This document shows, piece after piece, positions 1 to 4,663 of a stretch of 64,000 nt of DNA. Location of the stretch: contig OX485807.1 in NCBI GenBank assembly GCA_950295325.1, forward strand, positions 622,501-686,500, given 5' to 3'. The position numbers and the translations under genes are program-made. Position 1 is the stretch's first letter; every line of letters starts with the position of its first letter. Origin of the DNA: Polytrichum commune (taxonomy: Eukaryota; Streptophyta; Polytrichopsida; Polytrichales; Polytrichaceae). The notes below the pieces were generated by a model. The model saw only the letters and a program-made list of their open reading frames with translations. It did not search any database and was not told the DNA's origin.

Positions 1-3000
1 AGGCTTGGGGTTATACTAAGGATAAAGTGGGAATTATATTCCAGGGGGATGGTCAATGCACCTCTAGAAGCAGTTTGAGGACAAGTATGCATCCGGCAGG
101 TGATCACAAACAAGGTGGAAGTTTTTCAGTGAGGCCAAGTCATGTGCCTCTGAAACCAGATGAAAGCTTGGCGATGGTGGAGTTCTCATTTGGTGATGGT
201 GTGGATGTTCCAGTATCATATGAAACCACAGTGAATTGGATGTGCAGAGAAGAGGTAAGCAGAGCTGACATAGAGGTCTTAAATGATGCGGGCAGTGGAG
301 ATGATGACGACGATGATGATGAGGAAGATGATGATGATAGCAATGAGGCTGGTGACAGCAGCCGGAGGAGAAACTGTAAGAAGGTGAAGATTTTTTGCCA
401 ATGTTTTGAGCAATTAGTGGTTCTTGTCCTTTGGTATTCTTCTTTCTCCATAGTGGGTTCACGTTAAAGCATGGTTGGGTATTTGACTGGTGTAGTCAGA
501 TGTTTTAGGTGGATCCATATGAGCTCACAAATTGTGGCGGGATGCAGGCTAAGAAGGATGACAAAGCAGGAGGTACCACACGGAGAATGGACTCAGATGA
601 TAGTGATGATGAGGATGCAGGTCTAGAAGCCAAGCGGGATGAACAAAGAAGACGAGGTGAGGGCCGAAAGACACCTCAGGGTAAAAGAATATACTGGAGC
701 AAAAGATATGGGTATGGGCCTTACCCTGTTGGGTATCGGGGAGCTGGAATCTTGTCATCATACAAGAAGGCACCCAAGTTCGCCCTGACCCCAATGGAAG
801 TGAAAAGAATTTTGGAATCTGGAGTGCTTGCCTTAAAGAATGCACAGTCACATACTATGCGGAAGATTATTGTATTCTCTTGCCTATGCATTCGACATGG
901 GTGTGAAGACTTCTATGAGCTAGATATTAACCATTTCAAGGTTCTCCAGCGAGGGGAGGCTTATAAATCTGCAAAGGATCCTGGGGTATGTTCTGTACTA
1001 TTCTCATTGGCTACAATTGAAGCTTTGAGGTTGACATAATTTTTGTCTCAAATCCAAGTCCACACAGTGTATATTGTTATAATCTATCTCTATCCATCTC
1101 TCCCTGGTTGGATGTGGGTCCTCGGTCTTTAGTTGTATCCTACATGTGATTTTTGATTTGACTTGATTTTGTTTTTCCCTCTGCTTTGGCTGCTATGAAT
1201 CATAGTTACACTTGTCATTGTCCAGTATGCTCACAAAGAGCATGTTTGGATCCATGCCTGTGTGGACCATAATGTTTGGCAAAGACTTCTGCATGAGAAG
1301 GTCTTCATTGTATTTTCAAGTTTATTTCATCAACTTCTGAGGTTGCTAGTCAACAACTGGTCTAAGTGGTAGTCAGATTTATGCATCATCCAGACTTTTC
1401 ACAAAAACCCCACTGTCTTTATTATTACCAAAAGGTAAGATTGCTTCTCTTTTTAACTGAGTTGGAGGTGATTGATACAGCTGGGCAACTCACCCTCCTG
1501 TTGTTTTCATCACAGGAACACATATTGTATTCTCATCCAAGTGGCCGGACAAAAGTTTTTCTCCCAAATCAGCAGAACCCCATCCTTTGTCCAGTGCATA
1601 TTATTGATGAGGAGAAGGAAATGCGACCAGCTGGTGCAAGCACACCATCCTGCCTGTTCCTTTGTATAAAGTATGGAGGCCGCACCCGCAATCTACCCCA
1701 AAACCAGTACGTACCCTGGTTTCTCTTTTACTTATAACCTTGCATAGTCCTAGTTCGTAACATGGTAATAAGGAACCAAGAACCAAAGACTAGTGGTGGC
1801 AGACACCTCAGTCTAGTGCAGGAGGTAAATCCTGCAGATTAGCGGAGAGTGAGCAATTGATTCAATAGCTTTGCTTACCCTGAGGAGGAAATCTATGTTG
1901 CGGCAGGTATCAATGGTAGAAGATTTCACCTCTTCAGTGGCGAGACCATTACTTATGGGTCCGTTCCTCCCTCTTTAGGTGCTGGGAATCTGGTTTATAT
2001 TGACTGGGTTCTTGGAATGATTGATCAGTTGAATGTTCTAAATTAAGAGGACAGGATTAGGTTATAGTCTCTGACATTGGCAGATCAATTTCTGCATGTG
2101 ACGAGAGTCAAACATTGCTGTCACGTACTTCCTGCACTTTTTTGAGATCATAAATTCAGAGGTGTTTGACTCCATGATCTCAAATAATTGCTAGTGAAAA
2201 TCAGTAGCCCGCAGATGCTGTTTAATTTCACCATTCTTGTAAGGGATTGAAGAGTAAACAGAGGTTATAGAGCAGTGGGGCTCGGGTGTCTAGGTACGTG
2301 CGACAGCGGATGGGTCGCAACAAGCTAAAATCGTTTGGACCACTAATGTGCCAAATGGCGTTGTTGGTCCACGTTCGGACGGGGAGTTTTTTCTTCAAAG
2401 CACTTGGCATCACCTTACTGTTCATGGCGGGATTCTCTGATGATCAAGTACGCAAGGAAACTAAGTACCGGAACCTGGATCTGCTGCGAAAGTACTATCG
2501 GTAATTTCCTAAGCTTGCTCTGGGAATTTCCCATTCATACGTCTGTGATAACATAGTACGAGTGAGCTTAAGCTGTGAACTTCTCATTACAATGTGTGGC
2601 ATGTGCAACTCATTAAGTGAGGTGTTTCTTATTACTCAAAGATGTGTTTGATGAACCAAGAGTACCTATTTGGAGCTTGTAGGTTTCCTTTTGTACCAAT
2701 TCAAATTTATAATTTGATTAATTTCAGAAGTGATTTCTTCTATTGTTCTCCTTCTGCTTGATTGCTTCACAAGACTAAGACTGTCACAAATCCCAGAGCA
2801 ATCTTGATAAACAAATGAAATTTCTACTATCAGTCTACCCTCAGATCCACAATCTTTTGTGACTAGCATGTTTGATGTGCAGGTCAGATGATGCAGCCAA
2901 AGGAGAGCAATTGTTTCATCCTTACCCAGCATTTTCTCCTCAAGCACCACGACTCCCTTCAGCAGCTTCTCAGGTGAGGACACATGGATCAACTTGTTCT

Positions 3001-4663
3001 CTTGCTTCACTGCAACGTGTCAGCCTCCTTTCAGGAACTTGTCCTCATGTGGGAGCACAGAAGGTGTGCCCAGTGTAGAGACCCTATGTTAATACCAATT
3101 AAATTTGAAAAATGGTGCTAAAATCAACAAATGAGTCCTATTAAAAATGGGTCCTATGTTTGGTTTCAGGCACGGCTAGTTTGATAGGGTGGTTTCGCAA
3201 ACAACTAAACTTTGTCTCTATTGTATCTTCTACTTCCCACTACCTTCCGAGATGTAGCAGAAACTCGAGACTAGGATCCATTGTCAGGAACTGATAAAGT
3301 CAGTGGGGATGTCGTGGAAGGTGGCTTCTTCCATGCAGATTGTTGGGGATGGCCCTTCATCAAAGGGCGTGTCACCATTTGGCTGTTGCTGCATGTTTGC
3401 TTTGTTTTTTTTACTTCATTCTAGTGTTTGATTGCTTCGTTTTTACTTGCTTTGGATCAAGTATGTAAGCCTAATATCTGTGGATTAACTATCTCTATTA
3501 TACTTGTTTTGTTTTTTACTAATTACCTTATATCTGCAAGTGTAGTCTGAACCTTGATGCTTACAAGGATATTTTTACTTCAGTAAAGCGACATAGATGT
3601 CTTGGATTCTTGGTTGAATCTGAGGACTTGGTATATATGCTAGACAACAAGTTGCTTAAGTATCCCTATTACCTCCAGAGATGAAGCAGAAATCAAGACT
3701 AGGATTCACAGTTGGGAACTGATGGAGTCACTGGCAATGCTGTGGAATGTGGATGGCACTCTGTTCAAATGACTTGCCACCATTTAGCTATTGCTGGATG
3801 ATTGGTCTCTTTTGATTGATACTTGTTCTTGGTTTCCCTCTTTAGCTTCTTCTAATTGAGCATGTAACTGTAAGATCTCTGGATTTGATACCTCTCTTGA
3901 TTATTAGTCTGCTGTTTACTGGTTACTCTTATGGTACTTAAAGGATATTTACTTGCAGGCAATAACGGTTGCACCGATTGCACCAGCTCCTACTTCGACA
4001 CAACCTTCTCAAGGGAGCCTGACACCAAAGAAGCCCCCCCCTCTTCTTGTACGCAAGGATCCACCAGTATTGCCTGTGGTCTCCACCAGGCCCAAAGTTT
4101 CTGCTGATCGGCCATACAGGCGCATCCCTCCTCTACCGTTGCACCTCATGAAAGCACCAAAACGAGGAAGGAAACCCAAGAATCTGGACAAGCCAAAGCA
4201 GGCACCACTTGGACCGCCTCCATTTGGCCCCTTCCCCAGGTTCCCAATCCAAGGTCCCCCAATTGGGTTCCCCCCCATGCCCCCACCTCCCGGGTGGCGC
4301 CCTGGCAATGGCTTCCCACCAGGTGCATTTCCCTTCCCCTTCCCTCCGTTTCCAACCTCCCCAGGTGCAGGTCCTCCTCCTCCATTCTTCCCACTCCCAT
4401 ATGGCTTCCCCCCATTCATGCTGCCACCACCTCCATCAATCGCTCCGCAGGAGCATAAAGGACAACCTCAAGATGAAGTCGGCCCTTCCGATGGGTCAGG
4501 CAGCGACTCAGGCAGCAGCAAACCTGCCACGAAGCTCGCTGACAAGGGTTGTGGCAAAGCAGATGAAAGGGAGCAGGAACAACTAGTTCAAGATACAGGT
4601 ACAGATGGCATGGGTAGCAGAGAAGAAGATATTTTTGACAGTACGATGCAATCCATAGTTTAG
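1..4663 (+). CDS. Tyrosine-recombinase-like nuclear protein, 5' end outside window
   Basis: The function is unproven. Exons chain in phase: about 1-383 (or 45-383 if the AG at 43-44 is an acceptor), 509-985, 1226-1259 plus 1373-1434 (this junction is tentative), 1516-1706, 2294-2500, 2883-2973 and 3959-4663 (stop). The first exon has a long Asp/Glu run. Exon 509-985 carries a basic patch and ALTPMEVKRILESG, then CIRHGCEDFYELDINHF, which resembles the box I region with its catalytic Arg in tyrosine recombinases. Exon 1516-1706 has a basic beta-like GRTKVFLP and a CPVHIIDE segment. Exon 2294-2500 ends in ALGITLLFMAGFSDDQV and LLRKYYR, which resembles box II and the terminal Tyr, but the HxxR site reads KALG, so the enzyme is probably inactive. 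The last exon has PKRGRKPKN, an AT-hook-like motif, and a long Pro/Phe-rich tail. I infer a domesticated Crypton/DIRS-type recombinase. An unrelated plant-specific protein is the alternative. Confidence 0.6.
3222..3957 (+). repeat. Imperfect tandem duplication inside the last intron
   Basis: About 3222-3600 and 3662-3957 are diverged copies of one another. Both contain a block reading ..AGATG.AGCAGAAA..GACTAGGAT followed by GGAACTGAT, and both end with AGGATATTT..ACTT.CAG. In the second copy this CAG is the real 3' splice site before the last exon at 3959. In the first copy it is a decoy acceptor near 3582. Confidence 0.6.

Follow-up and report, generated by a model that had tools for sequence, protein, structure and literature searches.

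The window analysed here is a 64,000 bp stretch of the genome of the moss Polytrichum commune (contig OX485807.1, designated C5 below; C5:622501-686500), taken from a 408 Mb assembly (GCA_950295325.1) of 64 contigs in which C1–C7 are 42.1–77.9 Mb. Its left end encodes most of a seven exon host gene on the + strand, the middle of which resembles the tyrosine recombinase (YR) core of Cryptons. Exons 2–7 span 3 bp–4663 bp of the window and exon 1 (543 bp) is upstream of it. The exons, with the amino acids (aa) that they encode, are as follows.

-1009 to -467 (L001 8991-9533, upstream of the window), + strand: exon 1, aa 1–181
3 to 383, + strand: exon 2, aa 182–308; open frame, acceptor TCGCAG, donor GTGAAG
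509 to 985, + strand: exon 3, aa 309–467, in which the YR-like core begins; open frame, acceptor TTTTAG, donor GTATGT
1516 to 1706, + strand: exon 4, beginning with aa 468 and ending two bases into codon 531; beta-hairpin region; open frame, acceptor TCACAG, donor GTACGT
2294 to 2500, + strand: exon 5, which ends two bases into codon 600 and completes the YR-like core; open frame, acceptor GTCTAG, donor GTAATT
2883 to 2973, + strand: exon 6, which starts with the last base of codon 600 and runs to aa 630; open frame, acceptor GTGCAG, donor GTGAGG
3959 to 4663, + strand: exon 7, aa 631–864 and the stop, proline-rich tail; 251 aa stop-to-stop open frame

The seven exons formed one joined frame of 864 codons with a single terminal stop and no inner stop, and all six introns, whose splice sites were picked by eye, had GT-AG borders. 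The introns had a guanine plus cytosine (GC) content of 39.7%, compared to 50.6% for the coding sequence and 44.6% for its third positions. When the bases of each exon were shuffled 2000 times, the numbers of stop-free shuffles were 0, 0, 0, 93, 30, 561 and 1 for exons 1–7 respectively. A preliminary description of this DNA had placed the gene between 509 bp and 2500 bp; exons 3–5 do fall there, but the gene reaches beyond that region on both sides. The motifs quoted in that description, ALTPMEVKRIL (from 782 bp), CIRHGCEDFYELDI, CPV..LF and GITLLFMAGFSDDQV..LLRKYYR, were all found on the + strand in the order given, and the exons that hold them join in frame through GT-AG introns within the 864 codons.

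Profile alignments were made with rows from the Crypton-like elements of the same genome only, hand-picked among the fetched loci (10 rows in the first, trimmed profile, then 9 and then 16 rows) and omitting heavily decayed pieces (L020, L036 and L039–L043 among them). Alignment of the untrimmed 9 row profile with the full 864 aa protein using hhalign revealed a single alignment between aa 400–602 of the protein and positions 121–319 of the profile (183 columns, E 0.0029). With the 9 row and 16 row profiles the alignments to the full protein covered 183–186 columns, from the first helix through the catalytic Tyr. The 243 aa core alone scored 29.8 against the 9 row profile, a score reached by none of 430 shuffles (maximum 23.2), none of which aligned over 150 columns or more; the reversed core scored 14.0 over 9 columns. 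With 16 rows the scores were 35.5 for the host protein (E 0.0011) and 32.9 for the core, and none of 400 shuffles scored as high (maximum 27.3) or aligned over more than 128 columns. The host protein scored 13.6 against the reversed profile, and the alignment register was maintained when rows were left out (152–201 columns). When the host protein was ranked by E-value against the Crypton profile together with 82 Escherichia coli K-12 proteins, it was first of the 83; the true YRs ranked lower, with XerC second (score 22.7, E 0.027), FimB ninth, FimE tenth and XerD twelfth. The 82 proteins were selected longer annotated coding sequences from three stretches; prfB, fimA, fimD, fimF-H and short or cut genes were among those omitted.

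The likeness was also located without gaps. Two blocks, one of 54 columns from six Cryptons and one of 38 columns from seven, were slid along the full host protein; the likeness had first been spotted by eye, but its boundaries played no part in the scan. The rows of the second block were the seven that had the +23 spacing described below and reached the Tyr, as an eighth row ended too early and rows lacking the motif were unused. The 54 column block fitted best at aa 400, 20 bits above the next place, and the 38 column block at aa 562, 15 bits above the next place. The two blocks were 162 residues apart in the host protein compared to 160, 160, 160 and 166 residues in four Cryptons. The absolute scores were low; the weight of this test is in the placement of the blocks. 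The blocks and the active site positions read from them are as follows.

782 to 943, + strand: Crypton N block, aa 400–453, box I with Arg I; best ungapped place, its score reached by 2 of 2000 shuffles of aa 367–620
893 to 895, + strand: R437, Arg I, kept; register from the ungapped block and the profile alignment
1552 to 1554, + strand: K480, aligned with the hairpin Lys (NHK in Cryptons), kept; from profile alignments
2385 to 2498, + strand: Crypton C block, aa 562–599, box II to the Tyr; best ungapped place, its score reached by 3 of 2000 of the same shuffles
2397 to 2399, + strand: K566, at the place of Arg II, where HxxR reads FFFK; from the ungapped +23/+32 spacing
2466 to 2468, + strand: Y589, at the place of His III, where GH reads KY; from the +23 spacing
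2493 to 2495, + strand: Y598, at the place of the catalytic Tyr, kept; from the +32 spacing

His III lies 23 residues after Arg II, free of gaps, in XerC, XerD, FimB and all eight of the Crypton rows caught by a motif search. The Tyr lies 32 residues after Arg II in the same proteins, save for the one row that ends earlier. This shared spacing sets the HxxR of the host protein to FFFK; the KALG proposed in the preliminary description was three residues out of register. The first place of HxxR is not a His in these Cryptons either, but a Lys. The host protein therefore does not have the R-H-R-H/W-Y catalytic set of an active tyrosine recombinase (PF00589): the damage suspected from the first reading is real in that Arg II is replaced by Lys and His III by Tyr, but the catalytic Tyr (Y598) and Arg I are still there. 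By analogy with the family, the replacement of these two residues is expected to have stopped normal recombination. The profiles and blocks indicate that the core (aa 400–600; 782 bp–2500 bp) is a diverged YR domain.

The Crypton-like elements that supplied the profiles are multiple. Searching the genome for Phage_integrase yielded 12 matches, of which a single one was above the cut-off; the other 11 overlapped pieces detected with the protein of the L009 family. The match above the cut-off was on a 20 kb contig with a bacterial look that is likely contamination (C23:3200-5600, L005); it encodes a 370 aa integrase frame, which likewise looked bacterial and was excluded from the profiles. The L009 protein matched 60 pieces in the genome (E 0.01), and those of L015 and L024 matched 47 and 22 pieces respectively (E 0.001); the three lists overlap and pieces are not equal to copies. 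DUF3504 matched the genome once, away from the host gene (C3:21358349) and under the cut-off (E 0.95). Of three Crypton proteins compared with Pfam, one matched DUF3504 (E 0.0012), two matched Phage_integrase (6.2e-4 and 1.8e-4) and two weakly matched QRICH1 (0.049 and 0.24), all below the curated cut-offs.

Three L009 copies, at C7:38.12 Mb, C7:30.50 Mb and C6:44.09 Mb, shared a common 5′ end and a common 3′ end and measured 5.6 kb, approximately 5.2 kb and 6.2 kb respectively. The first of these has a piece of approximately 0.4 kb between two copies of AATCTAGTC, and part of the middle of the copy at C6:44.09 Mb did not match. Two copies were 98.65% identical across 5,038 columns, and an additional 152 columns showed 100% identity; the third had 97.7–97.8% identity over 3.6 kb, falling to 87.6–88.3% in the last 150 bases. 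Beyond the ends, no match between the sites was found within the 10 kb compared. The elements contained two inner inverted repeats, with no terminal inverted repeat and no clear target duplication seen. This fits Cryptons, which are described as having no terminal inverted repeats (PMC3212892). A DIRS-type origin was considered and rejected: the flanks of the one copy examined, an L009 copy, held six open frames of at least 100 aa (maximum 155 aa) within 4.5 kb on each side, none of which matched a Pfam reverse transcriptase (E 0.1), so that the elements are more likely to be DNA-only. With copies 97.7–98.7% identical, these relatives of the host gene look recently active.

The genome also holds many decayed Crypton pieces, many of which carry stops, and the host gene could accordingly be read as a dead Crypton copy in or beside a host gene, the joined frame being an annotation artefact or a recent exonisation with no function. 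The stops found in so many decayed copies are not seen in the host gene, however, which has kept 864 codons free of stops and frameshifts and GT-AG borders at six introns despite having diverged to only 21–25% identity between its core and the Crypton row that heads the profiles. We consider this explanation unlikely.

Introns were compared by eye. A phase-2 intron just before the YDER place was present in five families (L009, L013, L017, L022 and L024) and a phase-0 intron just before W-F/Y in three (L015, L017 and L022). In three Crypton families an intron was inferred that lies approximately 2 bases or less from the place of host intron 4, depending on the alignment, and this near-coincidence is suggestive. 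Shared introns were nevertheless rejected as proof of descent, as intron 4 coincided only nearly and intron 3 did not coincide.

Several results weigh against a Crypton origin of the core. Host intron 3 differed from the nearby Crypton intron in both phase and place. The first, trimmed profile gave an hhalign E-value of 0.057 in local mode and 0.0049 in global mode (179 columns) and 2.6 bits with HMMER, and in two of the five sub-profiles with rows left out the match was not significant, with five and three of 60 shuffles scoring as high. Smith-Waterman alignments with single Crypton rows were at noise level for seven of nine rows; the relation is thus visible to profiles and not to single sequences. 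AlphaFold models of two exon pieces, made from single sequences, had predicted local distance difference test (pLDDT) values of 50 and 61, too low for evidence of fold. Pfam returned no family for aa 182–864 at E 1, and at E 10 none for the core or aa 1–277 save a chance-level match of a fragment to HicA_toxin (E 0.11). A search of the PDB sequences with the core at E 10 gave no match.

A chance match between helical proteins, with no relationship to recombinases, would account for the HMMER result on the core (2.0 bits, with 13 of 5000 shuffles as high), the two weak sub-profiles and the low absolute block scores of -8.0 bits (54 columns) and 0.8 bits (38 columns), a level to be expected of distant relatives. 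It would also have to produce two separate ungapped blocks, each at approximately 1 in 1000, in the correct order and spacing, together with an alignment over the whole domain of a length that no shuffle reached, and appears very improbable. An independent and much older origin, in which the protein has a YR fold or is another kind of helical DNA-binding protein and the match goes back to a remotely shared fold, would agree with the weak pairwise similarity and with the lack of a DUF3504 or Phage_integrase match for the host protein in Pfam. Set against this are the higher score of the host protein than of four true bacterial YRs against the Crypton profile and its fit to the Crypton block spacing, and we regard such an origin as decidedly unlikely. 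The YR ancestry put forward in the preliminary description is thus made more specific by the profiles, the ranking and the blocks, as the closest relatives found are the Crypton-like elements of the gene's own genome.

Unlike these elements, the host gene is not a mobile element present in many copies and bounded by ends of its own: its core DNA and core protein matched one place only in the genome (protein at E 1), in a search that can miss weak matches. The first 467 aa matched the place of the gene itself and a 38 codon piece at C2:611819-611932. Within C2:609800-613800 (L031 2021-2132 and 3862-3927) there are two short inverted copies of the 5′ part of the host gene, one of 112 bp at 97% identity that begins at the ATG and one of 66 bp at 94%. 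Their spacing is similar to that in the gene, but no similarity was found in the sequence between them.

Outside the core, the host protein has an NLS-like (nuclear localisation signal-like) KRLRLE at aa 13–18, an acidic region at aa 271–310 (45% Asp plus Glu, net charge -13) and a tail (aa 601–864) that is 24.2% Pro; the net charge of the core is +14. Two features of this layout were located by direct reading.

300 to 338, + strand: acidic run DDDDDDDEEDDDD
4157 to 4180, + strand: AT-hook-like PKRGRKPK, aa 697–704, a resemblance only

The latter had no Pfam match at E 10. The N-terminal domain of the Cryptons (profile columns 1–119) had no counterpart in the host alignments. The acidic N-terminus and proline-rich tail had been described as additions to the recombinase, which is not clearly so: acidic leaders were found in both of the Cryptons checked (net charge -15 and -11), and tails with 9–11% Pro, compared to 24% in the host protein, in all three checked. 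Part of the layout of the host protein may therefore be inherited from Cryptons.

Elsewhere in the window, two near-identical dirigent-type open frames (24,106 bp–24,597 bp and 40,297 bp–40,788 bp; Pfam E 1.2e-14 for the dirigent-type frame) lie 16 kb apart, each followed by a similar retroelement-like frame (26,575 bp–27,243 bp and 44,115 bp–44,761 bp); the pair looks like a recent duplication. Open frames between 55,529 bp and 57,466 bp, the first of which had no Pfam match, are reminiscent of LUMINIDEPENDENS.

Taken together, the evidence makes it likely that this is a single-copy land-plant gene whose middle is an inactivated Crypton YR core, kept as a nuclear and probably DNA-binding protein. 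The preliminary description had proposed a recombinase turned into a DNA-binding host protein; the YR ancestry and the damaged site are borne out by the profiles and blocks, and the functional part is carried here as a proposal. The host protein would no longer cut and rejoin DNA. Its basic core and AT-hook-like stretch could still bind DNA or a partner, and with the NLS-like KRLRLE and the acidic stretch it may act in the nucleus, as a regulator or a protein of chromatin, a role that would parallel the one suggested for the animal Crypton-derived genes ZMYM2-4, QRICH1, KCTD1 and WOC. A bolder version, which we hold to be doubtful, is that the core was tamed into a nuclear regulator while its sister Cryptons still move, and that it may recognise Crypton DNA, repress the elements dominantly and even retain a DNA-linking activity; such residual activity would be conceivable with three residues kept, namely Arg I, the Tyr and the Lys of the hairpin.

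Capture of Cryptons is known in animals and fungi, and a plant gene derived from the catalytic core would add an independent capture in a different kingdom. As related elements look recently active in the same genome, a direct comparison of donor and captured gene is possible. The presence of Cryptons in a land plant is notable in its own right; with introns shared between families, these elements are possibly unreported. Our literature search, with most subscription journals and the Repbase entries outside its coverage, found neither Cryptons nor a gene with a Crypton core reported for land plants. Cryptons are named from fungi, diatoms and animals (PMC4157794) and treated in general terms in a review (PMC11630846). 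In the available text of Kojima and Jurka, the mentions of the plant lineage are of Chlamydomonas, in a figure legend, and of a green algal mitochondrial gene (PMC3212892).

The closest comparison is with the elements of the same genome (L009, L013/L006, L008, L015, L017 and L022), which have a collinear YR core with a block spacing nearly equal to that of the host gene and, where checked, an acidic leader and a proline-richer tail as it does. These Cryptons are multicopy, and the less decayed among them retain Arg II, His III, the Tyr and the N-terminal domain, whereas the host gene is single and keeps only the Tyr of these. Kojima and Jurka described Crypton-derived genes in animals and yeast, including DUF3504 genes that lack the Tyr and second Arg (PMC3212892). 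Like the animal DUF3504 genes covered there (KCTD1, KIAA1958, ZMYM2/3/4, QRICH1 and WOC), the moss gene has a Crypton YR core with a broken catalytic set inside a longer host protein. It differs in retaining the Tyr, as the vertebrate and insect genes have reportedly lost both the Tyr and the second Arg (PMC3212892), and in having no Pfam DUF3504 match, for which reason it was not assigned to that family (PF12012). As the host is a land plant, the capture was probably separate from those in animals. The yeast proteins Gcr1 and Cbf2/Ndc10 are likewise Crypton-derived, from CryptonF, and have not preserved the catalytic site, according to the same source (PMC3212892); they carry the CryptonF GCR1_C domain, whereas the host protein has no Pfam match. 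In plants, the ALOG family of developmental regulators also consists of proteins from a tyrosine recombinase element, its domain being traced by Iyer and Aravind to the N-terminal part of a DIRS1-like recombinase (PMC3537659). The host protein had no Pfam match to the ALOG domain, and what it retains is the C-terminal catalytic core rather than the N-terminal part kept by ALOG.
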